Made by a program: the position numbers and the translations under genes
Notes under the pieces: generated by a model
What the model saw: the letters and a program-made list of their open reading frames with translations, nothing else
Database searches by the model: none
Told to the model about the DNA's origin: nothing
Shown here: positions 4,366 through 61,258 of the stretch, one piece after another
How the letters are laid out: each line of letters begins with the position of its first letter
How positions within the stretch are numbered: the first letter of the stretch is position 1
IMG/VR virus record: IMGVR_UViG_3300030202_003189
Location: 167,286-231,285 of that record
DNA: 64,000 nt
DNA from: a virus
Strand: one strand, 5' to 3'

Positions 4366-5334
4366 ATGAATAAAAATAAAAAAATAGGATGTTTAGATAT
4401 AACAGCATTAAATTATGATGAAACTGTAGGGGTTGCTTGTGATAGATGTTGCATAAAACCAGAACAGGACAATATCATAAAGGAAGTTCTCAATTTTATG
4501 TTATTTGGTAAAAGAGACCCGAATAAACCGATAGATTATTCAACATACGCTGTGTCAAAACTAGACAATGAACCACTCTTTAACCTACCTTCCCAAGCAA
4601 GAGAATATGGGTTACAAATAGGGTGTTTAGGTTTTCATGAACATATTATGAGGGGAAAAAAATTATATATGGCGTGTTCTTCTCATGAAGACGCTCTATC
4701 AGAAGATAGAGTTGAACCAACAGCCGAAGACTATGTTGAAAGTATAACAACAGAAGGGGTTGTACAGTGGTATAGATCTACAACAATTGAACAACAAGTA
4801 AAATTCTGTGAAGAAAAAATAAGTGAGGGTTATAGATGGAATCGTATAGATAGAATATGTAGTATGCCAAACAGGGATAATACAAACATAGGGAATCATC
4901 AGATAGTCGGATACGTAGATAATATACCTGTATGGTATACAAAAGGAGCCGCCATGGAATATGCCAATGTAATAAAATGTGATGGATATTACTCCTATAA
5001 TATGAATGGTACACTTGGATATATTGCTTGTGAGAATTATGATATTGTAAAAGAGAAACTACTAGGTGTAGAATGTAAAGGAACCAGAAAGATGTTAGAC
5101 GGGACCTTAGCATTTGTTCAATTAGGTCAAATAAACGCAACTAAATATGGTGAGGCTTGTTGTCTAGAACAAGCACACCAAGGATATTTATGGAATGGAA
5201 GAGGATGTGTTAAAAATCAAATGGAACTAACATGGTCATGTATTGATAATTTAACAACAGAAATCTATGATGGTACCGGTGAATATAAAACATTTGACGA
5301 ATGTCTAATGTTCTGTGAAAAAAATAAAAAATAA
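4366..5334 (+). CDS. Cys-containing virion-associated protein
   Basis: A 322-residue product starting MNKNKKIGCLDITALNYDE, one N-terminal copy of the GCxDxxAxNY repeat half. Regularly spaced Cys residues occur throughout, with CCIKPEQ near residue 28 and repeated short segments such as YRWNRIDRIC and YLWNGRGCV (aromatic-WNxxxC). The WN-G/R-xC motif occurs at least twice, suggesting internal duplication. It lies between two repeat-bearing virion genes with 13 and 5 nt gaps, so co-expression is likely. No family was recognised; a tail or surface component is inferred from context. Confidence 0.65.
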   Translation: MNKNKKIGCLDITALNYDETVGVACDRCCIKPEQDNIIKEVLNFMLFGKRDPNKPIDYSTYAVSKLDNEPLFNLPSQAREYGLQIGCLGFHEHIMRGKKLYMACSSHEDALSEDRVEPTAEDYVESITTEGVVQWYRSTTIEQQVKFCEEKISEGYRWNRIDRICSMPNRDNTNIGNHQIVGYVDNIPVWYTKGAAMEYANVIKCDGYYSYNMNGTLGYIACENYDIVKEKLLGVECKGTRKMLDGTLAFVQLGQINATKYGEACCLEQAHQGYLWNGRGCVKNQMELTWSCIDNLTTEIYDGTGEYKTFDECLMFCEKNKK

Positions 5335-5339
5335 GTATA

Positions 5340-6932
5340 ATGGCACAACCAGGATGTATTGATGAATTATGTTTAAGTTTTGACTTTGCTTCTTATCCGT
5401 ATAGTGGCCCAATTAACTCGTATTTCTTTGAGTCTATTGACACTAATGTGGCTAATGTTTGGGGACTACCAACTCCGGTAATCGGAGCGTTTAATCCGTT
5501 CAGTTTAGGGGCAAATATTTTGATCGGTAGTAGTGACGCTGGTATGACGTCAACCACTACCGGACTAAGTACCTCTTACGAATTATTTTACTTCCAAGGA
5601 GGTAATTTCTTATCAGTTCCATTGGCAACTCCAATTCTTATACCAAGTACCTATGTTGTTAGAGTCACTTCTACATCTGAAATCGCAGATGATGGGTCGG
5701 CTTGTATTTATGATTTTTCTTTCGCAATAAATAATAATTATGATTTTATTCCTTTTGTGATGGCTGGTTCCACAGGAGCGAATGGTTGGTGTAATGCCTG
5801 GGGATGTACTGAAGCATCATCACCTAATTATATTCCAGGGGCTAATGCAAATGACGGTTCTTGTGTCTATAATATGGATGCTGATCCTTATGGTTGTACC
5901 GATAATAATGCTTGTAATTACGATTTCTTAAAAACTATTGACGACGGAAGTTGTAATTATGATTGTTATGGATGTACAGACCCTAACGCTGGTAATTGGA
6001 ACACTTCAGCAACAATTCCATGTAATGGACTCTATAATTTTTGTGTAAATATGGGGGTTTCCAACTGTTGTTGTGATTATAACCAACAAACATTTGGGTG
6101 TACAGATTTTTTAGCAGATAACTACGATTCATCAGCTTCATTTGACGATGGAAGTTGTACCTTCACAACTGAAGGATGTACGGATCCTAGGGCAGATAAT
6201 TATAACCCTATTTATACAACTGATGATGGAACTTGTAGTATTGGTGGGTGTATGGATAACACAGCTTCTAATTGGAATCAGGAAGCCACGTTTGACAATG
6301 GTTCCTGTGTGTATGATAACTGTAAATATGGTTGTACGGACCCAACATCGTCTAATTATGATATTTACGCAACTTGTGATGACGGTTCTTGTATGGGTGG
6401 ATGTTGTGGAAAAACAAACTCAGGTAATTTTATAATTACAGGTACTACAGAAAGTAAATTAAACAGAATTAAGTGGCTTGGGACCGCTATAGGGGTCGAC
6501 TCAAGTGGTGCGGTTCAAGACAATGTAAATATTGCGATGACTGATGCAAACATGACGGCAAAATACGGTGTTAATCAATGGTATCCTTTAGTTAGAAGAG
6601 TCCCATCTTTAGGAATGAAGAATGGATGGACACAAATAACTCCTGGAGTTGTTACTGCATACACCATTGATAATATACATTATTGGGATTATGAGATAGG
6701 AAAACAATCAATGTTCGCAGTAGAGATGAAAAATTGTTGTCCAGGATGTCTTTATCCAGATATAAAAGAAGAGTGGACAATGGGACATGTTTTCCCTCCA
6801 CAAATAGAAAATAATGTATTTATAGATAGAGGAATTGCTTCCGTTTTTGAAGAACATTATAGATTAACAGAAGTTAAGACTTTGGAGGATTTTGATATTT
6901 ACCAATCAGGATTTTTCAATATAATAAATTAA
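5340..6932 (+). CDS. Virion protein with seven tandem GCTDP-type Cys repeats
   Basis: A 530-residue product. Residues 1-150 look beta-rich. Residues about 155-351 hold seven tandem repeats of the form GCTDPxAxNYxxxAxxDDGSC, each with two Cys. The C-terminal 180 residues are a different domain (KLNRIKWLGTAIGVDSSG onward) with a few CC/CxxC pairs (NCCPGC). The repeat is common in secreted proteins of marine Bacteroidota; its biochemical role is not established, though paired Cys and acidic DDGS suggest disulfide or metal-stabilised loops. Neighbours are virion proteins, so a tail-fibre or baseplate role is likely. Host-derived repeats in a virion protein suggest exchange with the host. Confidence 0.75.
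   Translation: MAQPGCIDELCLSFDFASYPYSGPINSYFFESIDTNVANVWGLPTPVIGAFNPFSLGANILIGSSDAGMTSTTTGLSTSYELFYFQGGNFLSVPLATPILIPSTYVVRVTSTSEIADDGSACIYDFSFAINNNYDFIPFVMAGSTGANGWCNAWGCTEASSPNYIPGANANDGSCVYNMDADPYGCTDNNACNYDFLKTIDDGSCNYDCYGCTDPNAGNWNTSATIPCNGLYNFCVNMGVSNCCCDYNQQTFGCTDFLADNYDSSASFDDGSCTFTTEGCTDPRADNYNPIYTTDDGTCSIGGCMDNTASNWNQEATFDNGSCVYDNCKYGCTDPTSSNYDIYATCDDGSCMGGCCGKTNSGNFIITGTTESKLNRIKWLGTAIGVDSSGAVQDNVNIAMTDANMTAKYGVNQWYPLVRRVPSLGMKNGWTQITPGVVTAYTIDNIHYWDYEIGKQSMFAVEMKNCCPGCLYPDIKEEWTMGHVFPPQIENNVFIDRGIASVFEEHYRLTEVKTLEDFDIYQSGFFNIIN
5802..6392 (+). repeat. Seven GCTDP-type protein repeats
   Basis: Seven tandem copies in the virion gene at 5340, for example GCTDFLADNYDSSASFDDGS followed by Cys. 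Copies differ in loop length. One copy lacks the terminal DDGSC and ends in an alternative Cys-rich loop, suggesting ongoing repeat evolution. Confidence 0.85.
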
Positions 6933-43511: not shown

Positions 43512-44441
43512 ATGAATAATTATTACGATATTCTTGGTGTTAGCAAGGATTCCACAACGGAGGAAATTAAGAGGGAGTATAGAAGATTATCCAAAGAGCA
43601 TCATCCAGACAAAGGTGGAGATGAAAATCGGTTCAAGGAAATTTCTGAAGCTTATGGGGTTTTAGGTGATCAAAATAAACGAACTAACTACGATAATACC
43701 CTTAATAACCCTTTTAGTGGGGGTAATTTTGGTAACGGCGATGCCTTTAACGAATTCTTTAATCGAGCAGGTGGTGGTGCAAGAACCAAAGAGACAGAAG
43801 ACCTTAGTGCTAATATACAAGTAACATTGGAAGATATTAATAAGGGGGTAACTAGAAAAATTAGATATAGAAGACGAATATTCGATAGAACTAAACCTCC
43901 TAGTATATGTCCCACTTGTAATGGATCGGGTACAGTTAGTCTTTTAGGTCCCTTTAGGACAAAATGTCCTACTTGTAGTGGAAGAGGAAGAATGAATGTT
44001 CATAAAATAGTAGAACAAGAAGTCTCTTTCGATGTCCCAAAGGGTATAAGTGACGGAGAAAGAATATTCTACGCTGGTTTCGGTAATGAAACCACCAACG
44101 GTATGGGGAACCTTTTTATCACAATTACACAGAAACCCCATCCAATCTTCACTAGGGAAGGTAATAACCTTATAGTGTCCAAGGAAATTTCATTCCCCAT
44201 TTTAATTATAGGGGGGTCGATACAAGTTAAAACACTAACAGGGTTAATAAAGGTAAATGTGGTTGAGGGTACCAAACCAATGGAAAGGCTAAGGATAGCA
44301 GGAAAAGGATTAAATTATGAAACAGGAGTGGGTGATTTAATAGTTGAGTTAAAACCAACCATTCCTAATAAAATTACAAAAGAAGAAAGAAAATTATTAG
44401 AGAGGTTGAAACTTTCTGAGAATTTTAATAAAATTAAATAA
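43512..44441 (+). CDS. dnaJ: DnaJ-type co-chaperone
   Basis: A 309-residue product. J domain at residues 1-65 (YYDILGVSKDSTTEEIKREY) with the HPD triad at 31-33. A short Gly/Phe region follows. The zinc region has only two CxxCxGxG motifs, CPTCNGSG and CPTCSGRG, instead of the usual four, so one zinc centre rather than two. The C-terminal substrate-binding domains follow (FDVPKGISDGERI; ISFPILIIGGSIQV). Length is below the usual 370-380. It would deliver substrates to a DnaK such as the one at 55604. A phage-encoded pair is unusual. No GrpE was seen. Confidence 0.9.
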   Translation: MNNYYDILGVSKDSTTEEIKREYRRLSKEHHPDKGGDENRFKEISEAYGVLGDQNKRTNYDNTLNNPFSGGNFGNGDAFNEFFNRAGGGARTKETEDLSANIQVTLEDINKGVTRKIRYRRRIFDRTKPPSICPTCNGSGTVSLLGPFRTKCPTCSGRGRMNVHKIVEQEVSFDVPKGISDGERIFYAGFGNETTNGMGNLFITITQKPHPIFTREGNNLIVSKEISFPILIIGGSIQVKTLTGLIKVNVVEGTKPMERLRIAGKGLNYETGVGDLIVELKPTIPNKITKEERKLLERLKLSENFNKIK

Positions 44442-45736: not shown

Positions 45737-47554
45737 ATGAAAGATAATGAAAAAGTTATATTAAGATATTCATGGGAGAATCTGTGTTCCACAGAATACC
45801 ATAACTATATTCCACTTAGTGCGGTAGAAGGAAGGAGTCCAGATATTGTAAGTGATGTTAGTCCAGACTACATTAAACTCCATCACTCAGGGCGAACAAG
45901 TCTAAAAGAGATATCCTCTTCTCTAGATAAACCCTCTTCTTTATTGTATTATAAGAAATCCGAACAATGCCAAATGAATGAGAAAGAATGGAATAAAAAT
46001 GCATTCAATAAACTAACTCATAATATGGTTAACAGGATAACACTTATATTATCTGAGTTACCAGGAAACAAACTAAAACTTTCATTATTTAGATTTAGAA
46101 AAGAAAAAAGAGCAGGATTCCAAAACTTCAAAAAGAGCAGTGATGACATTCATATCACAATTAATAAGGATACAAAAAACTGGTTTTTCACTAGAACGAC
46201 ATTCTCGAATAGAAAAAGAAATGTTACTACAAGTAAAAATCCCTTCATATGGGTGGAAAATAAACTAGAAGAGTCATTCAAACTACCTAGTATTTTTGGT
46301 TGGTATAGGGTTGTTACCCATATTGATGTTGTTGATACTGAGGATCCAGTCAGAAAAGAAATGGTAAAGGCTTTGATAAAGGTTTATAATGAAATAGGGA
46401 GTAGATTAAAACAAAAACCCGATCAGACAATATCTCACAATATAATAAATGATATAGTTCCAACATTCGGATATAATTTAGGTGTGTTAATTGGGAAGTG
46501 GTTTTGTGAAGAACGTAAAATAAAGTTACCAGATAATTGGCAGAACTACTTTTTTAATTGGTATCCCGGAGTTAAAAGAATTAGAAAAACACAAATGAAA
46601 CTTTTACCCGCTATAGTTCAAGGGTATGGGATTAAATCAAAATACATAAACCAATTACTAAATCAATATCCAACACTAAATATTAATGATATAGTGCTTT
46701 GGTTTACTATGTTAGGTCCAGACTTCTTTAGAGAATTACCTTTAAGTTTATTAACAACAACTTCATCAGTAGACACATATAGGTTAATAAGTCCACACTC
46801 TAAAAAATCTGATTTAGATGAGCAGTCTCCTTTAAGTGTGGCTCGTGAAGTTGCTCATAGTTTAACAACACAAGAAAGAAGAAATATAATTTCAATCACT
46901 AAAACAATGAAAGAGGCGTCTCCATATTTCCTAGGAGAGATAAGGGATCATGTATACACAAAAATAAAATTATCTAAATTAGGTGAAAACGTATCACTAA
47001 TCGCAAAAACAATGGATGAGTTCAAAAGAGAACATCATGATTGGGCATCATTAATGCATTATCTAATGTCAGATCGTTCAACACAATATTATTACAAACC
47101 ACAAACATTAGAATTAATACAAAAAGATTATGAGAATTATAATGTATTAGTACTAAAGAATGAGTCAGATTATTTCGAAGAGGGGGAGACACAGAAGAAT
47201 TGTGTTAGAAGTTATCTTTCACAATATAGTAGTTTGATATTTTCTATTAGGAATACAGATAATAAAAGACTAACTTGTGAAGTCCTAGGAGGTAAAATAG
47301 TTCAGGTAAGAGAATTATGTAATGGAGAAGCTGGTGAGGAATGGGATGGGGTATTAATAGAGATGAAAAAAAGAATTAAAAAACTTTTTAGTTTGGATTT
47401 ATTAAAACCTTGTGTTAAAATAACCTATAAGAAAGCTAAGATAGAAAAATGGGTAATTAAGGATGGGGAGTTGTATACTGATAGAAATGTAGAAGAAGGA
47501 TATATTCCAGACGAGGAGTTTCTTATGACCGAACTAGACGATTTACCTTTCTAG
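45737..47554 (+). CDS. PcfJ-like protein
   Basis: A 605-residue product. The C-terminal third has the PcfJ-like signature: LVLKNESDYFEEGETQKNCV with a conserved Q-K-N-C-V-x-x-Y, then LIFSIRN and VQVRELCNGEAGEEW. PcfJ-like proteins occur on mobile elements and phages; biochemical role unknown. The N-terminal 400 residues are helical with no match. It has its own promoter-like box with the ATG 4 nt downstream. Its stop TAG overlaps that of the convergent bS21 gene in CTAG. Confidence 0.7.
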   Translation: MKDNEKVILRYSWENLCSTEYHNYIPLSAVEGRSPDIVSDVSPDYIKLHHSGRTSLKEISSSLDKPSSLLYYKKSEQCQMNEKEWNKNAFNKLTHNMVNRITLILSELPGNKLKLSLFRFRKEKRAGFQNFKKSSDDIHITINKDTKNWFFTRTTFSNRKRNVTTSKNPFIWVENKLEESFKLPSIFGWYRVVTHIDVVDTEDPVRKEMVKALIKVYNEIGSRLKQKPDQTISHNIINDIVPTFGYNLGVLIGKWFCEERKIKLPDNWQNYFFNWYPGVKRIRKTQMKLLPAIVQGYGIKSKYINQLLNQYPTLNINDIVLWFTMLGPDFFRELPLSLLTTTSSVDTYRLISPHSKKSDLDEQSPLSVAREVAHSLTTQERRNIISITKTMKEASPYFLGEIRDHVYTKIKLSKLGENVSLIAKTMDEFKREHHDWASLMHYLMSDRSTQYYYKPQTLELIQKDYENYNVLVLKNESDYFEEGETQKNCVRSYLSQYSSLIFSIRNTDNKRLTCEVLGGKIVQVRELCNGEAGEEWDGVLIEMKKRIKKLFSLDLLKPCVKITYKKAKIEKWVIKDGELYTDRNVEEGYIPDEEFLMTELDDLPF

Positions 47555-47745
47555 TCTTCATCGTGGTCAATTTTCCACTGTGATAAGTTTTTTGCTTTTT
47601 GGATTTGGTCTCTTCGTTTTTCAGAGGGTTTAGTGTAGTATCTTTTAGTACGTATGTTTTTCATAGCTTGTGTCTTAACAAATTTTCTTCTCATTTGCTT
47701 CAACGCTTTCTCGATATTTCCTTTCTGTACTTTTGTTATTAACAT
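47551..47745 (-). CDS. rpsU: Ribosomal protein bS21
   Basis: A 64-residue basic protein: MLITKVQKGNIEKALKQMRR then KFVKTQAMKNIRTKRYYTKP and SEKRRDQIQKAKNLSQWKI. This matches bS21, particularly the Bacteroidota form (MLIxxVxxGExIExALKxxKRKFxKT...RxxxxFxKPSxxxRxxxxKA). bS21 sits near the 3' end of 16S rRNA on the small subunit; in Bacteroidota ribosomes it helps hide the anti-Shine-Dalgarno. Phage-encoded bS21 is known in some marine and giant phages. Here it is on the - strand with a TATTTATA box 20 nt upstream and no Shine-Dalgarno. It may replace host bS21 and bias initiation. Confidence 0.85.
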   Translation of the reverse strand: MLITKVQKGNIEKALKQMRRKFVKTQAMKNIRTKRYYTKPSEKRRDQIQKAKNLSQWKIDHDED

Positions 47746-47765
47746 GTATTGTTTTTAGTGTATTT

Positions 47766-47773
47766 TATAAATA
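47766..47773 (-). promoter_or_regulatory. Putative phage-class promoter box before bS21, minus strand
   Basis: TATTTATA on the - strand, 20 nt before the bS21 start. Its orientation matches the gene, supporting the box as a sense-strand signal. No TTG-N19/20 partner is seen. Confidence 0.45.
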
Positions 47774-47830
47774 TGTTTAATACGACAAATATAAAAAAAA
47801 TATCTGAGACCACCAATACAAAATAGATGA

Positions 47831-47838
47831 TATTTATT
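47831..47838 (+). promoter_or_regulatory. Putative phage-class promoter box TATTTATT
   Basis: TATTTATT 17 nt before the ATG at 47856, in the 110-nt gap between bS21 and the next + strand gene. A member of the recurrent box set. Confidence 0.4.
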
Positions 47839-47855
47839 ATTAAAGTAATTATTTT

Positions 47856-49346
47856 ATGAACATTATAGAAGAAGCCTTATTAGTTGAAAGTCGTATGAGT
47901 GATGCAAAGAAGAAATTCGGTAATCTCAATATGTATGATTGGCAACTTTTGGATAAATTAGACCCTAGCGATAATCACAAATACTTAATGTGGTTAGCTA
48001 GAGAATATGATAAAGGACCTCAATCCCAGATGTATGACCCCAAAGTTAAAGAAATACTAAACCATTTTCATAGATATCCTGAAAAATATAATGAAAGAGA
48101 CATCAACCAATATAAATCATTAAAGGATTTGGTAAAGGCCTCCCAAGAAGCTCAGTTGAATGTTTCTAAAAGAGAACTGAAAAGAACGGGCGCAAAAAAA
48201 GTATATGAAGACGACTCATATCTAGTAGTAGTCCCAACAACTCATGAGGCTTCTTGTTTTTATGGTGCAGGAACAAAGTGGTGTACCGCTATGACAGACA
48301 GAGATGGACATTTTAATAACTACTCTAGAAAGGGAGTGTTATTATATATTCTTAATAAAAATTTACCAGAGGATGATCCTTTATATAAGGTGGCTCTTTA
48401 TAAGAATTACAGTGGGGGTAAAGAACTTTATTACGACGCCACAGATAAACAAATAAGTGACATTAAAGCTTTATACACATTACCACCAGAAGTAGAAAGA
48501 ACAATAGATGTTACCTACGATGTAATGAAAGGGGCTTGGACGGAGGCTCGTAAGGGACATAACTACGGCGACCCAAGAATAGCAGCACTGGCGGAGTTTT
48601 TAGATTTAACTGATGAAGATATAGATGATGTTATTGACGAGGAATATGAACACTACACAATACCAGTTTTTCAATATGACGGTGAAGAATATGCAGTAGG
48701 AACAGACGCAGAAGCAGATGATGCCAATCTTGAATATATAGAAAATCTTTTAGATGATATAGGTTACGATGGGTTTGGTCATAATATAGAGTGGTATGTA
48801 GATGGTAACGATGTTGCAGAAGATTGGAGAGGTAGCGTAGAAGAATGGGTATATGATGATCCAGAATCATATTTGGATGAAGATGACAAGCAGTATTTCG
48901 ATCAGGATATTTTTGATAACCTAGTTGAAAAACAAGAAGAATTAAAGGAATATGAAGAAAGGATAAAGGAATTATATGATAAAGACTCCACAAGTTGGGC
49001 ACGGGATGAGAAAGAGATTGAGCAGTTAGAAGGAGAGGCTGAAGAAGTAGAACTGAAAATCCAAGACTTAGAAAGCGACCTAGAAGATTCAAGAGATTGG
49101 TCTGATGAACAAAAAGAAGATTATATCGAATCGTATCTGGAGGACATTAAAGATGACCCTGTAAACTATTTGAAAGACATGGGATATGGAAATGAAGAAT
49201 TAGAACGATATATTGATAGGGAAGCTTTTATACAAGGAGTCGTAAATGATGGTTACAGAGGAGAAAATCTAGGGAGCTATGACGGTGAAGAAAATGAAAT
49301 ACAAACTGAAGATGGAACATGGTATTATATTTATAGGACTAATTAA
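47856..49346 (+). CDS. Protein with GAGTKWCTA motif, candidate head-packaged
   Basis: A 496-residue acidic product. The N-terminus MNIIEEALLVESRMSDAKKK contains a short hydrophobic helix ending LLVE-S, consistent with a T4-type targeting peptide cleaved after [LI]xE. Residues about 115-200 hold VVPTTHEASCFYGAGTKWCT then A, a motif seen in uncharacterised phage proteins, followed by LLYILNKN. The C-terminal half is very acidic and coiled (about 360-420). It overlaps the next large gene by one base. A packaged protein with unknown activity is inferred; the conserved Cys and Trp may form an active or binding site. Confidence 0.65.
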   Translation: MNIIEEALLVESRMSDAKKKFGNLNMYDWQLLDKLDPSDNHKYLMWLAREYDKGPQSQMYDPKVKEILNHFHRYPEKYNERDINQYKSLKDLVKASQEAQLNVSKRELKRTGAKKVYEDDSYLVVVPTTHEASCFYGAGTKWCTAMTDRDGHFNNYSRKGVLLYILNKNLPEDDPLYKVALYKNYSGGKELYYDATDKQISDIKALYTLPPEVERTIDVTYDVMKGAWTEARKGHNYGDPRIAALAEFLDLTDEDIDDVIDEEYEHYTIPVFQYDGEEYAVGTDAEADDANLEYIENLLDDIGYDGFGHNIEWYVDGNDVAEDWRGSVEEWVYDDPESYLDEDDKQYFDQDIFDNLVEKQEELKEYEERIKELYDKDSTSWARDEKEIEQLEGEAEEVELKIQDLESDLEDSRDWSDEQKEDYIESYLEDIKDDPVNYLKDMGYGNEELERYIDREAFIQGVVNDGYRGENLGSYDGEENEIQTEDGTWYYIYRTN

Positions 49347-52300
49347 TGAAAGAGATTATAGAAATAGAAAATATTATTAAACTTCTTACTGAAGAACCAG
49401 ATATGGTACCTAACCCCTCTGGAACTGAAGGTGAACCTACCACTATGGAACTAACAGACTTTCAAAAGTTACTAGGACTTATTAAAGGAAACTTATCTTC
49501 AGAAGTTTTTGATGATGATTATAATAGATGGGAAGATAATGTTGTAAGAGAAGTTGATGATGAATTCATTTATATTGATATAGAAAAAGGGAAACCTGGT
49601 GGAAGACATGAAACTGAAGCCGCTGCCGAACTTTTTGGTATGGAGGAGTGGGATTTTGATATCGTTAAAGATATGGTTGAAAATAATTATGACGCTCATT
49701 ACTATGATCCCTTTGCTTGTGATAGTGCAGATGAAGAATGGAATGAAGGCTATGCTGCCTCGGCTCTTAACGATGAAAACAAAAGATTATTAGAAACGTA
49801 TTTTAGTTATGTCTCTCCAGTTCTAGGTAAAGAAATTACTAAAGTTATTAGTGCTGCCACTCATGGTGAGGACTGGGGCGATGTCGCAAACAAAATGCAA
49901 AACAATGTTATGGGAAATACACTGGTAGATGAACTCCTATCTGATTACTGTTCAACCATCAACCCAGCTATGGTACACGCAACAGCTAAGGATGTTAGAA
50001 AAGAATGGGATGACGTATTAAAAAAAATGGGGGCGACTGAGTGGTTTGATACCGACGAAATATTAACATTTACCATACCCCTAAAGGAAATGATATATAC
50101 CTATTATAAACAGAACAGACAGAAGAATGGGGACACATTAGAAGAAATGATTACTTATGTTATTGAGGATATTGGAAGTGCCTTTGGTAGCCTTAACGAC
50201 TGGTGGTGGGAATCTGATTATTATGATGAGTTTGAGGAACAGTATAATAAGGAGGCTACTTATACTATTAATCGATTTATTAAAAAGATAGAGGAACTGG
50301 AGGAGGACGATATACAAAAACTAGATAAGATTAGAGAGATAAATGATAAACTCACTGAGGCAGGGATTGATATGCAAGAAGACTTTAGACCAAAGGGGGC
50401 TCCTTATACTTTAAGAATCTTTGACCTGGATACAAAAGATCTGAAATTAAGAGTTAATGTTAGACCGGATAGAAAAGATAAAGGTTACGACCCAAATTAT
50501 AATTGGGGTACTAATAAAACAATAAAAATGGATATTGATGACTTACTTAAGAAGATGAATAATCCTGAGTTAACATCAGCCGATGAAAAACAACAATACA
50601 TGTCGATGACCTATGAACAAGTACAAAGACTAAATGAAAATAAATTAACAGAGACAGACAGAGATGTGGAAGTTAATAAATTTGTTAAATTCTGTAAAGA
50701 TGAGTTAGATATTAATGAGTTACCACAGGTGACTTTACGTTACGATAAAAATAAGGGAGAAAACCATTCTGCAATAGATACAACGGCTTATCAGTCAAAA
50801 GACCAAGGAGTACATGTATACGTTAAAGATAGGGCTTTGGTAGATGTCCTAAGATCACTAGCACACGAACTAGTACACCACCACCAACTAGAAAGAGACG
50901 AGGACTACTACTGGAAACACATTGAAGATAATCCAGGTATCCAATCAGGTACTGATCTAGAAGATGAGGCCAACGCGAGAGCAGGTTCACTTATTAAAGA
51001 CTGGGGACTTGTACACGGAAACAAACAAATTTATGAGCAGTTTAATGAACTAGAGGATGAAACGGAGGAATTAGAAGAAGATTTAGAAAACTGGGCTTAC
51101 GATGGAGATGAGATAGGACCTATTAAAGAAGAAGTTGAATTTGAACCTTTAACAAAACAGGAAGTAACAATATTAAACTTGATAGCAAGAAAATTTACAA
51201 ATTTAGAATTAAGTGCTATTGCGGATGTGGATCAAACACAAATCCCACAAGATCTACATAAGAGATATAGTGCTATGACTAAACTTTTTGGTATAAGGGA
51301 TACCTCTCAGGCTGAGGCTTGGGAGTATGGTAGAATATATGCAAAATGGATTGTTGATAATTGGGATGGACATACAGGTACTATTGATGCACCAGATTTT
51401 AGTGGATTCTTAACCAAAGATGCAGAAAAAAGATATCCAGAGGAATATGAAATCCAAGGTAATGAAGATGTTTGGGAAAAAGCTTTTAGACAAGGGTACA
51501 TTAATATGTGGGGTTTCGATGAAGAGTCTGTAGAGGAGGCTGCTCATCAGGCCTGGTGGGAGTATGACGCAGATATGGAGACCGTTGATTGGGGAGATTC
51601 AGATTCAGAAAATTTTGAAATTGGAGATGTAGATAGCTCTGGAAGAGTTCTTAGATTACAAGAACAAAGTATAGATATTAGTAAAATACCAGCAGAAGAT
51701 TTAAGTCCAGAGTTAGAAGTGGGTGATAGAGTATATGGTTGGGATTTAAGAGATGATGGTGACAACAAAGACTACCACCACGATGTGCCCAACCAAGTTA
51801 TTGGAAATGTAGTTAGTGTAGAAGAGGATAATAGGTACGTAACAAGTAAGGAAATAGAAAAATATGAGTTGAATTACATATATTATGATATCGAAACAAT
51901 AAATGGCGATAACGTGGCTCTTTATCCAGATGACAAATACATTAAACTACCAAAGAAAAAACTAAACGAAGAAGAAGTAGAAGATCTAGAATCAAAGGTA
52001 TTTAGATTCATTAGACCAATTGACATTGAGAAAGCATTATCACAGAAAGAAATACAGAAGGTATTAAAATCTTTAGGTTTGAAATATGATATGTTTGAAA
52101 CCTTAAATATTGATTTAGAAAGTGATATGGTGGAGGATCTAAGAAACCAAATAAGATTTGATAATTTCTATAAGAGAATGATGGCGGCTTCAGATATAAG
52201 AGGAGGTACCTGGGAGGGATTATTTGCTGGATTATTTAACGGTAAAGTTGTTGCTGGTGAGTCAGGAGTGGGCAAAGCTGATGTTATGACTCCTGAAGGA

Positions 52301-53473
52301 GGTTGGTCTCTTAAATTTGTTGGTAATAAAAACGAATCACCAACACTGGGAAGTTTGAAGACACAATTACAAAAAGTTAAAGAAGAGGGGTTAGTTGCAG
52401 AAGATGCAACCATTTATGGAATATTTAGTACACCAGATAGTCAAACAAGTTCTGAGTTATTTGAAGCTAAACATCAGATATTAGATAGTGCATTCGCAAA
52501 TGTAGATTTTCTTGCGGTTGCATACCCCGTACCACAACAGAATACAATAATAATGCATTTTACAGATATGGATAATCTAAAAGAAATGATAATAGATTCT
52601 GAAAACCCACCAATTAATAAACCAAAATCAGGTCCAGAAGCGTTAGGAGAATTAAGACTAAGTTCAAAAGGGTGGAAATCACTGGCCTTTCTACAAATTA
52701 CATTTCCAGAGGCAACACAAGAAAAGTATCAAAAATATTTACAAAAAGCACCTAGAGAAAAAGAAATAGAAGGAGTCTTTGGTAAATATGGTGAAAAAAT
52801 TCCACCTGAGGTTTTACAATATCTAAGAAAAAATCCTAAAAGCGTAATTAATAGGTTACAAAATATTCCAGGATATGATAAATATTTTACGGAAGAATTC
52901 ATTAGTAGTGCAGAGTATCTTACTCAAAACGCTAACGATAGAATAAAATCATTTAAGAATTTCTTAAATGAGAGATGTAAAATGAAAGATATACCGAGGA
53001 CTATCGGATTCAAACCAAGAGAGGCTTGGGAAGATGGACTCCAGGATATATTTGGTAGATGTTGGTTCCACTCAACACCAAAAGGAATAGAGGGAGCGTT
53101 TGGTAACCTAGCGGATAAAACTTTTGAATTATTTCCTCAAGAGGAATACCCTCAAATAAAAGAAAGAGTAGATGATATATTCAAAACATCACAACAAGTC
53201 TACAAGTATTTATTCCCACCAAAAGATGAAGAGTTAAAGTATAGTCTAAGGAATGTGGTTCAGGCTGATGCGGCTGAAATATTATATAACGATGTAAAAG
53301 AATTAGTGGAGGAAGCAGAAAAGGTGGAGACTGTGGTATCAATGGCTACGGAACAGGAACATTTAGAATATCTTGAGGGAATACGTAATAGAATAGAACT
53401 AATCCTAAATATTTTTACTAGTAGTGTCGGATCACCCCGTGAAAGAAAACTTGGGTTTAGAACTAAAACCTAG
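49346..53473 (+). CDS. Large multi-domain protein with HExxH metalloprotease-like and nuclease-like domains
   Basis: A 1375-residue product. The N-terminal helix ends LLTE-E (about residues 12-16), a candidate targeting and cleavage site. Residues 507-511 are HELVH (in SLAHELVHHHQ), with EDEANARAG about 38 residues on, as in zinc metalloproteases of the gluzincin/SprT style in phages. LQEQ at 771-774 may be a cleavage site between domains. Near 953-995, GTWEGLFAGLF, GVGKADVMT and GWSLKFVG give an E-D-xK layout like a restriction-endonuclease fold. Other acidic linkers contain LTE and LNE. It may be cut into separate internal head proteins; this is inference. Confidence 0.65.
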   Translation: MKEIIEIENIIKLLTEEPDMVPNPSGTEGEPTTMELTDFQKLLGLIKGNLSSEVFDDDYNRWEDNVVREVDDEFIYIDIEKGKPGGRHETEAAAELFGMEEWDFDIVKDMVENNYDAHYYDPFACDSADEEWNEGYAASALNDENKRLLETYFSYVSPVLGKEITKVISAATHGEDWGDVANKMQNNVMGNTLVDELLSDYCSTINPAMVHATAKDVRKEWDDVLKKMGATEWFDTDEILTFTIPLKEMIYTYYKQNRQKNGDTLEEMITYVIEDIGSAFGSLNDWWWESDYYDEFEEQYNKEATYTINRFIKKIEELEEDDIQKLDKIREINDKLTEAGIDMQEDFRPKGAPYTLRIFDLDTKDLKLRVNVRPDRKDKGYDPNYNWGTNKTIKMDIDDLLKKMNNPELTSADEKQQYMSMTYEQVQRLNENKLTETDRDVEVNKFVKFCKDELDINELPQVTLRYDKNKGENHSAIDTTAYQSKDQGVHVYVKDRALVDVLRSLAHELVHHHQLERDEDYYWKHIEDNPGIQSGTDLEDEANARAGSLIKDWGLVHGNKQIYEQFNELEDETEELEEDLENWAYDGDEIGPIKEEVEFEPLTKQEVTILNLIARKFTNLELSAIADVDQTQIPQDLHKRYSAMTKLFGIRDTSQAEAWEYGRIYAKWIVDNWDGHTGTIDAPDFSGFLTKDAEKRYPEEYEIQGNEDVWEKAFRQGYINMWGFDEESVEEAAHQAWWEYDADMETVDWGDSDSENFEIGDVDSSGRVLRLQEQSIDISKIPAEDLSPELEVGDRVYGWDLRDDGDNKDYHHDVPNQVIGNVVSVEEDNRYVTSKEIEKYELNYIYYDIETINGDNVALYPDDKYIKLPKKKLNEEEVEDLESKVFRFIRPIDIEKALSQKEIQKVLKSLGLKYDMFETLNIDLESDMVEDLRNQIRFDNFYKRMMAASDIRGGTWEGLFAGLFNGKVVAGESGVGKADVMTPEGGWSLKFVGNKNESPTLGSLKTQLQKVKEEGLVAEDATIYGIFSTPDSQTSSELFEAKHQILDSAFANVDFLAVAYPVPQQNTIIMHFTDMDNLKEMIIDSENPPINKPKSGPEALGELRLSSKGWKSLAFLQITFPEATQEKYQKYLQKAPREKEIEGVFGKYGEKIPPEVLQYLRKNPKSVINRLQNIPGYDKYFTEEFISSAEYLTQNANDRIKSFKNFLNERCKMKDIPRTIGFKPREAWEDGLQDIFGRCWFHSTPKGIEGAFGNLADKTFELFPQEEYPQIKERVDDIFKTSQQVYKYLFPPKDEELKYSLRNVVQADAAEILYNDVKELVEEAEKVETVVSMATEQEHLEYLEGIRNRIELILNIFTSSVGSPRERKLGFRTKT

Positions 53474-53479
53474 AAATAT

Positions 53480-53510
53480 TTGGGTAATACAAAATAATGT
53501 TGTATCTTTG
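53480..53510 (+). promoter_or_regulatory. Bacteroidota-type promoter before M20-type peptidase
   Basis: TTG at 53480-53482 (in TTTG), 20-nt spacer, TATCTTTG at 53503-53510, then TATT and ATG at 53515. The exact -7 box overlaps the in-frame ATG at 53497, which argues that 53515 is the true start and that the mRNA is leaderless or nearly so. Confidence 0.65.
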
Positions 53511-53514
53511 TATT

Positions 53515-54387
53515 ATGAATACACAAAATCTAAAACATCTAAAAGAAGTACTATCAATTCCAACAAAGACTTGGGAGGAAGAATTAATGATAGAATACCT
53601 TTCAACATACTGTGAAGAAAAAGGATTAGATTATTCGATAGATGATAATGGGAGTGTGTATGTAACAAAAGGAGAAACAGACGTATATCCTTGTGTGGTG
53701 GCACACATAGACACAGTTCATGAACCAGTAGAGATGGTAGTTAATGAAGAAAAACTACCAAATGCTCAGGGAGAACTGAAACTATCTTTGAAGGCTTATG
53801 AAAAAGAAGGTGGAAACCCAACAGGTATAGGTGGTGATGATAAGGCTGGAGTTTTTATATGTCTTAAGATGTTGGAACACTTTGACAACATAAAAGCCTT
53901 TTTTCCAGTTGCAGAAGAAACAGGATGCCACGGTTCAAATGATGCAGATAAGGACTTTTTCAAAGATGTAGGTTACGCAATCCAATTCGATTCAACGGAA
54001 AATGATACAATGAGTTTAACTCTAATGGGGGTCAAATTGTTTGAGGAAGAAAGTGTGTTTTTTAATTCAGTTAAAGATATAATTTTAGAACATGGATTAA
54101 AAAATTGGCACAATCATCCTTATACGGATACAATGAAACTAAAAGAAAAATTTGATTTTCCTTGTCTAAATTTTGCGGCTGGGTATTATAACTACCATAC
54201 AAAAGATGAATATGTTGTGGTAGACGATGTTCAAAATACTTGTAATATGGCGGTTAAAGTTATTGAATCCTTAGGACAAAAGAAGTATACTTATATAAAC
54301 AAAAAAGAATTATTAAACGAGTTTAGTTGGGAACCGGAGTTTCAATATGGGTATGACGACGAAGACTTGGATGATTGGGATTATTAA
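53515..54387 (+). CDS. M20/PepT-like metallopeptidase, short form
   Basis: A 290-residue product from the ATG at 53515; an upstream ATG at 53497 lies inside the promoter box. Metal-ligand motifs are in order: VAHIDTVH (about 63-70), GIGGDDKAG (about 102-110), AEETGCHGS (about 135-143) and YHTKDEYV near residue 235. These are the ligands of dinuclear zinc peptidases of the M20 tripeptidase T group. Length is about 100 residues below PepT, lacking the dimerisation lid domain. It may hydrolyse short peptides, perhaps recycling amino acids. It ends 6 nt before the tmRNA. Confidence 0.8.
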   Translation: MNTQNLKHLKEVLSIPTKTWEEELMIEYLSTYCEEKGLDYSIDDNGSVYVTKGETDVYPCVVAHIDTVHEPVEMVVNEEKLPNAQGELKLSLKAYEKEGGNPTGIGGDDKAGVFICLKMLEHFDNIKAFFPVAEETGCHGSNDADKDFFKDVGYAIQFDSTENDTMSLTLMGVKLFEEESVFFNSVKDIILEHGLKNWHNHPYTDTMKLKEKFDFPCLNFAAGYYNYHTKDEYVVVDDVQNTCNMAVKVIESLGQKKYTYINKKELLNEFSWEPEFQYGYDDEDLDDWDY

Positions 54388-54393
54388 AAATAT

Positions 54394-54806
54394 GGGGGTG
54401 ACTGGAATTGATTGGCATCAGTCGATTAGTATCAGCACGTCAAGCCTGAGTTAAGCTTGTAAAACTGATTCATTTTTTTAACTGGCGATTTATTTGCTAA
54501 TCTTGTTAATGAAGGTCTTCTAAAGACTGAAGGACAAGAAGTGGCTATCGCGTAACTAGGTTACGAGATTGCTCCGTTCCATCTAAAGCTCTTAAGATTT
54601 GTAGCTTAGTTTATGGAATGTCATCTAAACAAATCGAACCCGGTAATAATTGTTCCGCCGGTTAACATTACTGGAGCAGTTGCGACAGTCCCTAAGGTTG
54701 TTTATTCTATAAGGATTGTTAAAGACAAAGGAATAAACTAAACGTGTAGGAGAGATATTTTGAGAAGATGAACAAGACGGGGGTTCGATACCCCCCACCT
54801 CCACCA
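54394..54806 (+). ncRNA. ssrA: tmRNA (one-piece) with encoded CCA
   Basis: A 413-nt RNA. Acceptor stem GGGGGTG (54394-54400) pairs with CACCTCC (54796-54802), with G3-U70, the alanine identity pair. Discriminator A and CCA end at 54806. The T arm is GGGGG-TTCGATA-CCCCC (54779-54795), directly next to the acceptor. The resume context AACTGGC (54480-54486) is that of Bacteroidota tmRNAs. The tag reads from GGC at 54484 for 23 codons to TAA at 54553-54555; it begins GDLFANLVNE and ends GQEVAIA. The stop sits in a CGTAAC-TAG-GTTACG hairpin (54551-54565). The tag is longer than the usual nine or so of Bacteroidota, and the end differs from ALAA. It would rescue stalled ribosomes. Confidence 0.92.
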
Positions 54807-55461: not shown

Positions 55462-55626
55462 ATGATGAGTGAAACAATATATAAAATAAGAAAAAGAAAA
55501 GATAAAATTAAGGAAAGATTGACGCAGTTAGATAATCTTTTTGAGATAGGAGTTAACTCGTTAAATAATAAAAATAATAAACAAGAAAAAAAATTAAAAA
55601 AAAATGGGAAAAATTATTGGAATTGA
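55462..55626 (+). CDS. Small basic protein overlapping dnaK start
   Basis: A 54-residue product from ATG at 55462 (a second ATG follows at once): [20 protein letters not shown] then [16 protein letters not shown] and a Lys/Asn-rich end. It overlaps the first 23 nt of dnaK. It is placed between a consensus promoter and dnaK, suggesting a leader gene or translational coupling. No family recognised; coding potential moderate. Confidence 0.45.
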
Positions 55627-57469
55627 TTTAGGAACAACAAATTCATGTGTGGCGGTTATTGAAGGAAACGAACCTAAAGTTATAGTAAACGCAGAAGGTA
55701 AGAGAACAACACCTTCAATAGTAGCATATAAAGACGGAGATAGAACAGTTGGAGAACCAGCAAAAAGACAGATGGTAACCAATCCAGAGAAAACAATCTA
55801 TTCGGTGAAGAGATTTATCGGCTCAAAATATGCTGAGATAAAAAAAGAGGCTACTAAGATGGCTTATAAAACAAAAAATCTAAAAGGAGGTGTAAGAATA
55901 GTAGTTGGTGATAAGAACTATACACCACAAGAGGTATCAGCTGTTGTACTTCAAAATATTAAGAGGACAGCCGAGGACTATTTAGGGGCGAAGGTATCTG
56001 GGGCTGTTGTTACCGTACCGGCTTATTTTAATGACGCACAAAGACAAGCAACTAAAGAGGCGGGAGAGATTGCTGGATTAGAAATTAAAAGAATTGTTAA
56101 TGAACCAACAGCAGCGGCATTGGCATACGGAATGGATAAAAAGGATAAGGATATGACAATCGCTGTATATGATTTAGGTGGTGGAACCTTTGATGTTTCC
56201 ATTCTTGAGTTAGGTGATGGGGTGTTCGAAGTAAAATCTACAAATGGAGATACTCATTTAGGGGGTGATAATTTTGATGAGAAAATCATTGATTGGTTAC
56301 TAAAAGAGGCTAAATCCGAGTTTAACATGGATCTATCTAAAGACCCACAGGCATTACAAAGACTTAGAGAAGGTGCCGAAAAGGCAAAAGTAGAATTATC
56401 ATCCAGTTCACAAACTGAAATTAACTTACCTTATATTACTGCAGACTCCACAGGACCAAAACATTTGGTTAAGAAATTAACTCGTAGTGATTTTGATAGG
56501 TTAACTTCATCACTAGTTAAGAAAACATTAGAACCTTGTGAAAAAGCATTAAAAGATGCTGGTTTAACTTCTAAACAAATAGATGAGGTTATTTTAGTTG
56601 GGGGATCAACTAGAATTCCAGCAGTTCAAGAGGCGGTTGAGAAGTTATTTGGTAAGAAACCATCTAAAGGAGTTAATCCTGATGAGGTAGTAGCTTTAGG
56701 GGCGGCTATCCAAGGGGGAATCTTATCTGGAACTATAGATGATGTCTTATTATTAGATGTTACACCTCTTTCTTTAGGTATTGAAACAATGGGAGGAGTG
56801 TTTACAAAACTTATCGAATCCAATACAACAATACCTACAAAAAAATCTCAAGTTTTCTCAACTGCAGCTGATAATCAACCAGCAGTTGATATACGAGTAG
56901 GTCAGGGAGAGAGAGCAATGTATGAGGGTAATAAGGAAATCGGTAGATTCCAACTATCAGATATCCCACCGGCACAAAGAGGTGTACCTCAGATTGAAGT
57001 TACTTTTGATATTGACGCTAATGGAATACTGGATGTAACAGCCAAAGATAAGGCCACAGGTAAAGAACAGAATATTAAGATTGAAGCATCTTCTGGATTA
57101 TCGGATGAAGATATAACTAAAATGAAAGAAGAGGCGAAAGCTAATGAAAAATCTGACAAAGAAAAACTTGAGAAGATTCAGAAGATAAATGAGTCAAACG
57201 CCTTAATGTTCCAGACTGAACAACAACTTAAAGATAATGAGGATAAAATAGATGAAGAAATTAAGAAAGAGTTAACCGAAGTTCTAGATAAATTGAGAGA
57301 GGCTCATAAGTCAGAAGACACTAACCTAATTAATGAATACACAGAAGAACTCAATGAGTTATGGACTAAGGCTAGTAAACAGATGTATACGAATATGAAA
57401 GAAGATGATGTAGAAATGCCAAAAGGTGCTGAGGAGACTCAAGAGGCAGAGTTTGAAGAAGTAAAATAA
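55604..57469 (+). CDS. dnaK: DnaK (Hsp70) chaperone
   Basis: A 621-residue full-length Hsp70, near the bacterial norm of 610-640. ATPase motifs: [14 protein letters not shown] (residues 4-17), [15 protein letters not shown] (about 188) and [14 protein letters not shown] (about 330). The interdomain linker [15 protein letters not shown] lies near 385. The substrate domain and the helical lid follow, ending EAEFEEVK. It would work with the phage DnaJ at 43512, using host GrpE as none is seen here. It has its own promoter upstream and an intrinsic terminator downstream. A complete DnaK in a phage is uncommon. It is likely host-derived. Confidence 0.95.
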
Positions 57470-59343: not shown

Positions 59344-59724
59344 ATGAAATTAACTAGTGAAAATTTTGAAACAACCCTAAAAGATAATAGATTGGCTCTT
59401 GTGGATTTTTGGGCACAATGGTGTGGACCATGTAGAATGTTGAATCCAATAATGGATAGCCTTGAGGAAACTTATAAGGATAGAGTAGTTATCGGCAAGG
59501 TTAATTCAGACGAAGAGATGGAGTTAGCTGTTAAGTTCAGTGTGAGAAGTATCCCAACAGTAATAATTGTTAAAGATGGTGAAGTAGTAGAGAGATTTGC
59601 GGGAGCGGCACCAGAAAGAATGTACACTGAAAAGTTGGATTATTATTTGAAAGGGATTGAATCAAGCGAGGATAAAAAAGAACCCGACAATAAAGATAAA
59701 GAAGTGGTTGAAGAGAAAAAATAG
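59344..59724 (+). CDS. Thioredoxin
   Basis: A 126-residue product with the thioredoxin fold and active site WCGPC (C27, C30). The cis-Pro is in RSIPTVII near residue 76. The last 20 residues form an acidic/basic tail absent from standard thioredoxins (about 108). It would reduce disulfides in the cytoplasm, for example for a ribonucleotide reductase outside this window. It is followed at once by a terminator whose stem includes its stop codon. Confidence 0.88.
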   Translation: MKLTSENFETTLKDNRLALVDFWAQWCGPCRMLNPIMDSLEETYKDRVVIGKVNSDEEMELAVKFSVRSIPTVIIVKDGEVVERFAGAAPERMYTEKLDYYLKGIESSEDKKEPDNKDKEVVEEKK

Positions 59725-60658: not shown

Positions 60659-61258
60659 ATGGAAAAAAGATTAGATTATTGGGGAGCAAAAGACGGAGAG
60701 ACTAACTCATCCGCTACAGATAAGAATAAAGTAGAGATAGTTGATAATCATATTTATTTTTACTCTGAGGTAGAGAGACCTAAAATGTTAGAGTTAAATA
60801 AAAAACTTCGAGAGTTAGATATCAGGTTACAAAAACAGGCTTTAGCACAAGACACAGAATTACCAAGGATATACCTACACATCAATTCTTATGGTGGTAG
60901 TGTGTTTGCTGGTATGTCTTCTTTAGATACGGTTCTTACTCTTAAGTGTAATGTAGTAACAATTGTAGAAGGATGTGCGGCTAGTGCCGGTACAACTTTA
61001 AGTGTTGTGGGACATGAAAGATGGATGCATAAACATGCTTACATGTTGATTCACCAACTTAGTTCTGGATTCTGGGGAAAATATTCTGAAATAGAAGATG
61101 AGAAAAAGAATTGTGATAAACTAATGGAATTAATAAAATCAATATATGGTGAGTATACTAAAGTTCCAGAGAAAAAGATTGATGAATTATTAAAACATGA
61201 TCTTTGGTGGGACGCCAACACTTGTCTTAAATATGGATTAGTAGATAAAATTATTTAA
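60659..61258 (+). CDS. ClpP-like serine protease
   Basis: A 199-residue product of the ClpP/crotonase fold. The catalytic Ser is S109 in EGCAASAGTTLS, the His is H132 in YMLIHQLSSG and the Asp is D181 in KHDLWWDA, matching S, H and D of E. coli ClpP in order and spacing. IYLHINSYGGSVFAGM precedes. There is no ATPase partner gene in the window, so it may use host ClpX/ClpA or act alone, for example in virion maturation. With phage tmRNA and chaperones it may form a protein-quality module. Followed after 4 nt by a thioredoxin-like gene. Confidence 0.88.
   Translation: MEKRLDYWGAKDGETNSSATDKNKVEIVDNHIYFYSEVERPKMLELNKKLRELDIRLQKQALAQDTELPRIYLHINSYGGSVFAGMSSLDTVLTLKCNVVTIVEGCAASAGTTLSVVGHERWMHKHAYMLIHQLSSGFWGKYSEIEDEKKNCDKLMELIKSIYGEYTKVPEKKIDELLKHDLWWDANTCLKYGLVDKII

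Follow-up and report, generated by a model that had tools for sequence, protein, structure and literature searches.

The stretch of phage DNA analysed here (the window, which is the final 64 kb of a 231,285-base IMG/VR record) carries a real phage tmRNA gene at 54394..54806 (+), of a known kind and of the Bacteroidota type. Its 23-residue tag is a member of a family of phage tags and is therefore less singular than the initial annotation held, since long tags are a family-wide trait and not peculiar to the window phage. The new element is the genomic context of the gene, i.e., phage genes for Clp proteins, chaperones and a peptidase, and not the long tag as such. A possible coupling of the tag to the phage-encoded Clp proteins is the interesting and testable part. 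The phage is a large one, and its host probably belongs to the Bacteroidota; the terminase encoded in the record is T4-like, with a tblastn match of 31% to Flavobacterium phage immuto.

The tmRNA gene and its fold

The one-piece tmRNA gene (ssrA), with its CCA end encoded, matches the Rfam tmRNA model RF00023 end to end (model positions 1-374) with 98.5 bits and an E-value of 3.1e-37, above the gathering cut-off of 47 bits. The covariance-model check that had been suggested for this feature thus accepts the structure, and the full-model match places its limits exactly where they had first been drawn. No second tmRNA was found across the 231-kb record, and one weak further match was rejected, being a tRNA.

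The fold was tested on an alignment of the window copy with 16 phage homologues (17 sequences). The tRNA-like domain of the window RNA has the T arm, the CCA end and the alanine identity pair G3-U70, the last of which is kept in 17 of the 17 aligned sequences. Compensatory changes occur in four helices, namely the acceptor (pair 5-68), the T stem, the PK1 stem and the stop hairpin. In this four-helix structure 94.7% of cells are paired, compared with 88.0% in shuffles, and double-changed cells number 28 against 5.8 in shuffles; when the structure is slid, pairing drops to 42-52% of cells, and every slid version is beaten. The 5′ stem of PK1 (54447..54472, +), just upstream of the resume codon, shows changes on both sides in five of its eight pairs, while in the hairpin that encloses the stop codon of the tag (CGTAAC TAG GTTACG; 54551..54565, +) compensatory changes occur in three of six. 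Helices are predicted in the PK2-PK4 region of the window RNA. Together with the RF00023 score, the covarying helices bear out the first reading of the tRNA-like ends, G3-U70, T arm and stop hairpin as parts of a real tmRNA.

Such a gene is easily overlooked, since ARAGORN did not call the tmRNA at 54394-54806 when run on the window copy and shortened many of the long tags elsewhere. For 21 relatives with tags of the window type, it called the same tag frame in nine, two at full length and seven from a later codon. Matches of the entire tmRNA to the phage collection by blastn were confined to the 3′ end.

The tag reading frame

The tag frame (54484..54555, +) encodes GDLFANLVNEGLLKTEGQEVAIA followed by a TAA stop, i.e., 23 residues ending VAIA from codons 54484-54552. 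Its resume codon, GGC, lies directly after UUAACU, 90 bases into the RNA, and its UAA stop sits inside the covarying hairpin. Resume context, tag position and frame are kept in the phage relatives of the window tmRNA, whose tags in the matching frame are GKTIAKLATLGLVREESTVAVA-like, G[ND]VLDTMATLGLIREESTVAVA, GDVYSQMELMGLVSVDSKVAVA and GETIAKLQAVGLLRTEEVTVA. The other two frames from the resume point run into early stops (AIYLLILLMKVF and RFIC). A resume codon at another place, giving a usual ALAA tag, was the alternative named in the initial annotation, and no frame of the window tmRNA holds one.

For the tag frame of the two best-sampled subfamilies, pN/pS takes values of 0.34-0.48, and for their other frames values above 1. 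With six tag families pooled, the tag frame shows 58 synonymous versus 88 non-synonymous changes (p 0.005), and synonymous changes fall below expectation in the non-tag frames; the signal is modest, and codon-position counts are weak when the families are taken singly. Judged by these substitution patterns, the window tag frame is under selection, and the 23-residue tag ending VAIA stands as first described, since relatives keep the frame and the synonymous excess is found in this frame only.

Tags of cellular and viral tmRNAs

Bacterial genomes and viral contigs were scanned with one and the same 5′ pattern, and the figures that follow are samples, valid among the matches listed, of which the bacterial ones are mostly Bacteroidota. 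The tag finder demands a small or hydrophobic end, equally for the cellular and the viral set, and the many first-scan loci without a downstream T arm were left out. Permuted two-piece tmRNAs were recognized at L015, L068, L085, L113 and L020.

Among the matches listed, the 73 cellular one-piece loci, with 26 distinct tags, have a median tag length of 9 residues and an AA end at 73 of 73 loci, and 25 of the 26 distinct tags are 9-10 residues long, in agreement with the earlier statement that cellular Bacteroidota tags have about nine residues and end in (A)LAA. The one exception among the distinct tags listed is a 31-residue tag in the Cardinium endosymbiont cBtQ1, also a member of the Bacteroidota (L221). 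Viral one-piece tags among the matches listed (55 loci, 46 distinct) have a median of 23.5 residues, with a range of 9-42, and about half of them have no AA end; the difference in length from the cellular tags gives a Mann-Whitney p of 4e-11 with kinship ignored. The window tag thus falls outside the cellular pattern of 9-10 residues and an AA end.

The viral tags form mutually unrelated families, namely the window type (20-26 residues), family B (30-42 residues, ...AQxEANM...; crAss-like and similar phages) and the VELSTWTFDDVMAFVGADYAVAA type. Window-type tags mostly end in VA or IA, unlike the cellular tags listed, while many family B tags share the AA end with host tags. Cultured phages have family B tmRNAs as well, the tag being 35 residues long in FpV4, 30 in Calle and 38 in the crAss-like phi14:2. 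The tmRNAs of Flavobacterium psychrophilum phage FpV4 (KT876724, L320:1501-1915) and Cellulophaga phage phi14:2 (L322:301-770) are unannotated, small hypothetical ORFs being annotated across the latter; that of Calle was already annotated. A megaphage tmRNA (L185, LR756508.1:92434-92880) has a 36-residue tag, GVNNADYESAGFTAEDFAQMDGESLYHGSERKPAAV, with a ClpC-type gene in the same record. Group I introns were observed at tmRNA-bearing or crAss-like phage loci (L142:1309-1512 and L323:497-766).

Proteostasis genes and their linkage to the tmRNA

A gene for an M20/M42-type metallopeptidase (PepT-like; 53497..54387, +), assigned from partial Pfam M42 and NCBIfam PepT/DapE-like matches below curated cut-offs, ends 6 nt upstream of the tmRNA, and given this short gap the two are probably co-transcribed. 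The plus strand of the window also encodes a DnaJ-like co-chaperone (43512..44441; Pfam DnaJ and DnaJ_C), DnaK (Hsp70; 55604..57469; 841 bits in Pfam and 966 bits for the NCBIfam DnaK equivalog), thioredoxin (59344..59724; Pfam, 100 bits) and a second, divergent ClpP homologue with the catalytic Ser-His-Asp kept (60659..61258; Pfam CLP_protease, 111 bits). Outside the window, the record holds the other ClpP homologue (record 5424-6086), likewise with Ser-His-Asp kept, and ClpC (record 51507-53960), which has two AAA domains and aligns with B. subtilis ClpC at 739 bits over residues 27-805. The ClpP-docking loop of ClpC reads VGF in the window genome and LGF in six relatives. The ClpC gene is not adjacent to the tmRNA in this record. 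A glutaredoxin gene also lies within the window and a cyclophilin gene elsewhere in the record. SmpB was sought in the 231-kb record and not found; it is present in two relatives (G001 and G004) and in several megaphages. With a long-tag tmRNA, an unfoldase and two protease subunits encoded in one genome, failed proteins may be cleared by a route that belongs to the virus itself.

In relatives, DnaK, ClpC, the peptidase and the tmRNA occur together within about 8 kb (L040, L108, L136, L141), or ClpC, the peptidase and the tmRNA do (L128, L146), or DnaJ, ClpP and the tmRNA (L069). A peptidase homologue lies at most 1 kb from the tmRNA in 13 relatives. A search of IMG/VR with the neighbouring peptidase by itself found no relative. 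Among window-type records of at least 165 kb, ClpP is present in seven of eight and a Clp-type AAA protein in six of eight, whereas among family B records of at least 88 kb, ClpP was found above cut-off in none of 12 and AAA_2 in one of 12, as a weak match (41 bits, compared with more than 200 for ClpC genes). This distribution indicates that phage Clp tracks the window type and not long tags in general. The idea that long tags always go with phage Clp was therefore rejected, as family B has tags of 30-42 residues without ClpP or ClpC. Window-type phages form one lineage, so that the co-occurrence may reflect one or a few events. Terminase relatives, mostly short contigs, were left out as a control set.

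Other arrangements were also observed. ClpC and ClpP lie beside a permuted tmRNA in G037, where the tag seems to end ALAA, while G001 and G004 (L030, L054) combine a tmRNA bearing a 26-residue tag (GESYIDADGN...) with SmpB and two ClpPs, and neither a Clp-type AAA protein nor ClpC was found in these two. Near the ClpP-tmRNA locus of L069 there are two tRNAs with a CUA anticodon (5319-5394 and 6810-6883), so that TAG may be a sense codon in this phage. G000 has a glutamine synthetase-like gene (47474-48547) and, at 84-90 kb, a sugar-modification cluster with UDP-GlcNAc 2-epimerase and DegT aminotransferase (L005, L007).

Possible fate of tagged proteins

In regard to function, it seems somewhat probable that the window RNA is a working phage tmRNA that uses the host SmpB and AlaRS, with a long tag serving as a degron, for which the phage ClpC-ClpP is the most likely reader. 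The use of host SmpB and AlaRS is suggested by the fold, by G3-U70 and by the lack of a phage SmpB gene. During infection, the host AlaRS would charge the phage tmRNA with alanine, the host SmpB would bind the charged RNA, and the complex would enter ribosomes stalled on broken messages. The unfinished chain would then receive alanine and GDLFANLVNEGLLKTEGQEVAIA. The general role of tmRNA tags is that of a degradation signal, and this, together with the conserved small-hydrophobic end, points to a degron. Phage ClpC, the most likely reader in view of co-occurrence and linkage, would pass the chains to a ClpP assembled from the homologues that the phage encodes. As a guess from its position and its family (assigned from partial matches that score under the curated cut-offs), the neighbouring M20-type peptidase could perform the last step by cutting small peptides to amino acids. 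More tentatively, several Bacteroidota phage lineages may have evolved long tags, with the window lineage coupling its tag to a private ClpC-ClpP and peptidase pathway, by which stalled products would leave host control and be recycled by the virus.

The initial suggestion that the tag may direct proteins to a phage protease thus gains some support: ClpC, two ClpP homologues and further proteostasis genes are encoded in this genome. Phages that have no Clp genes can carry long tags too, however, and tag length alone is therefore no sign of a private protease. Alternatively, the tmRNA could work as such and host enzymes, either ClpXP or ClpC/ClpA, could degrade its tag; the extra length would then be neutral or aid engagement, and the phage Clp proteins would serve other ends, e.g., remodelling host proteins. 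Family B phages without Clp genes, cultured flavobacterial phages included, carry long tags that host proteases must handle if they are degrons, and many of these tags keep the AA end of host tags. In window-type tags, however, this end is mostly lost, and the lineage has its own ClpC-ClpP and linked genes. Host ClpXP stays a strong alternative, if a less probable one than the phage ClpC-ClpP. It is improbable that the phage RNA mainly competes with the host tmRNA for SmpB, the tag sparing products from host degradation or giving them another fate. A phage DS6A RNA that comprises little beyond the tRNA-like domain is similar to an inhibitor of tmRNA already described (PMC4131195), and the window RNA has an altered tag end; yet the tag frame of the latter is complete and under selection, and its stop hairpin is retained, features unneeded for mere SmpB titration. 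Finally, although phages can carry ssrA fragments from imprecise excision (PMC9004378), a passenger or decayed host copy without function is most improbable and largely refuted by covariation and tag-frame selection, many phage records conserving the tmRNA with compensatory changes, a selected tag frame and conserved neighbours.

A systematic difference thus separates Bacteroidota-type phage tmRNAs from their cellular counterparts, and it lies in the segment on which the fate of a tagged protein depends; one tag family is linked to phage-encoded Clp proteins. The reason for tmRNA carriage by phages can now be put to the test, for which cultured phages (Calle and phi14:2, for example) are suitable as well.

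Comparison with known systems

Phage tmRNAs have been reported in 402 of 18,146 phage genomes (PMC9004378), and in phage Wildcat the tmRNA is the most expressed lytic gene (PMC7474061). The window RNA shares with cellular Bacteroidota one-piece tmRNAs the tRNA-like ends with G3-U70, PK1, the AA..GG resume context, the stop hairpin and the RF00023 match, but differs in its tag, which has 23 residues and ends VAIA where theirs have 9-10 and end in AA. The tmRNAs of phi14:2, Calle and FpV4 are likewise of the Bacteroidota phage type with long tags (30-38 residues), yet their tag sequences are unrelated to that of the window, and the related IMG/VR records are without ClpP and ClpC. Mycobacteriophages of the Bxz1/cluster C type also encode a one-piece tmRNA whose tag is long (25 residues; ATDTDATVTDAEIEAFFAEEAAALV in Kashi_SSH1); this tmRNA is of the actinobacterial type and again unrelated in tag sequence. 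In the mollicute Mesoplasma florum, Lon instead of ClpXP recognizes the tag, which is longer there (PMC9382460). Given these mycobacteriophage and mollicute precedents, long tags in general were rejected as a novelty; the Mesoplasma system differs from that of the window in being cellular, in using Lon rather than ClpC and in its tag end, NYAFA.
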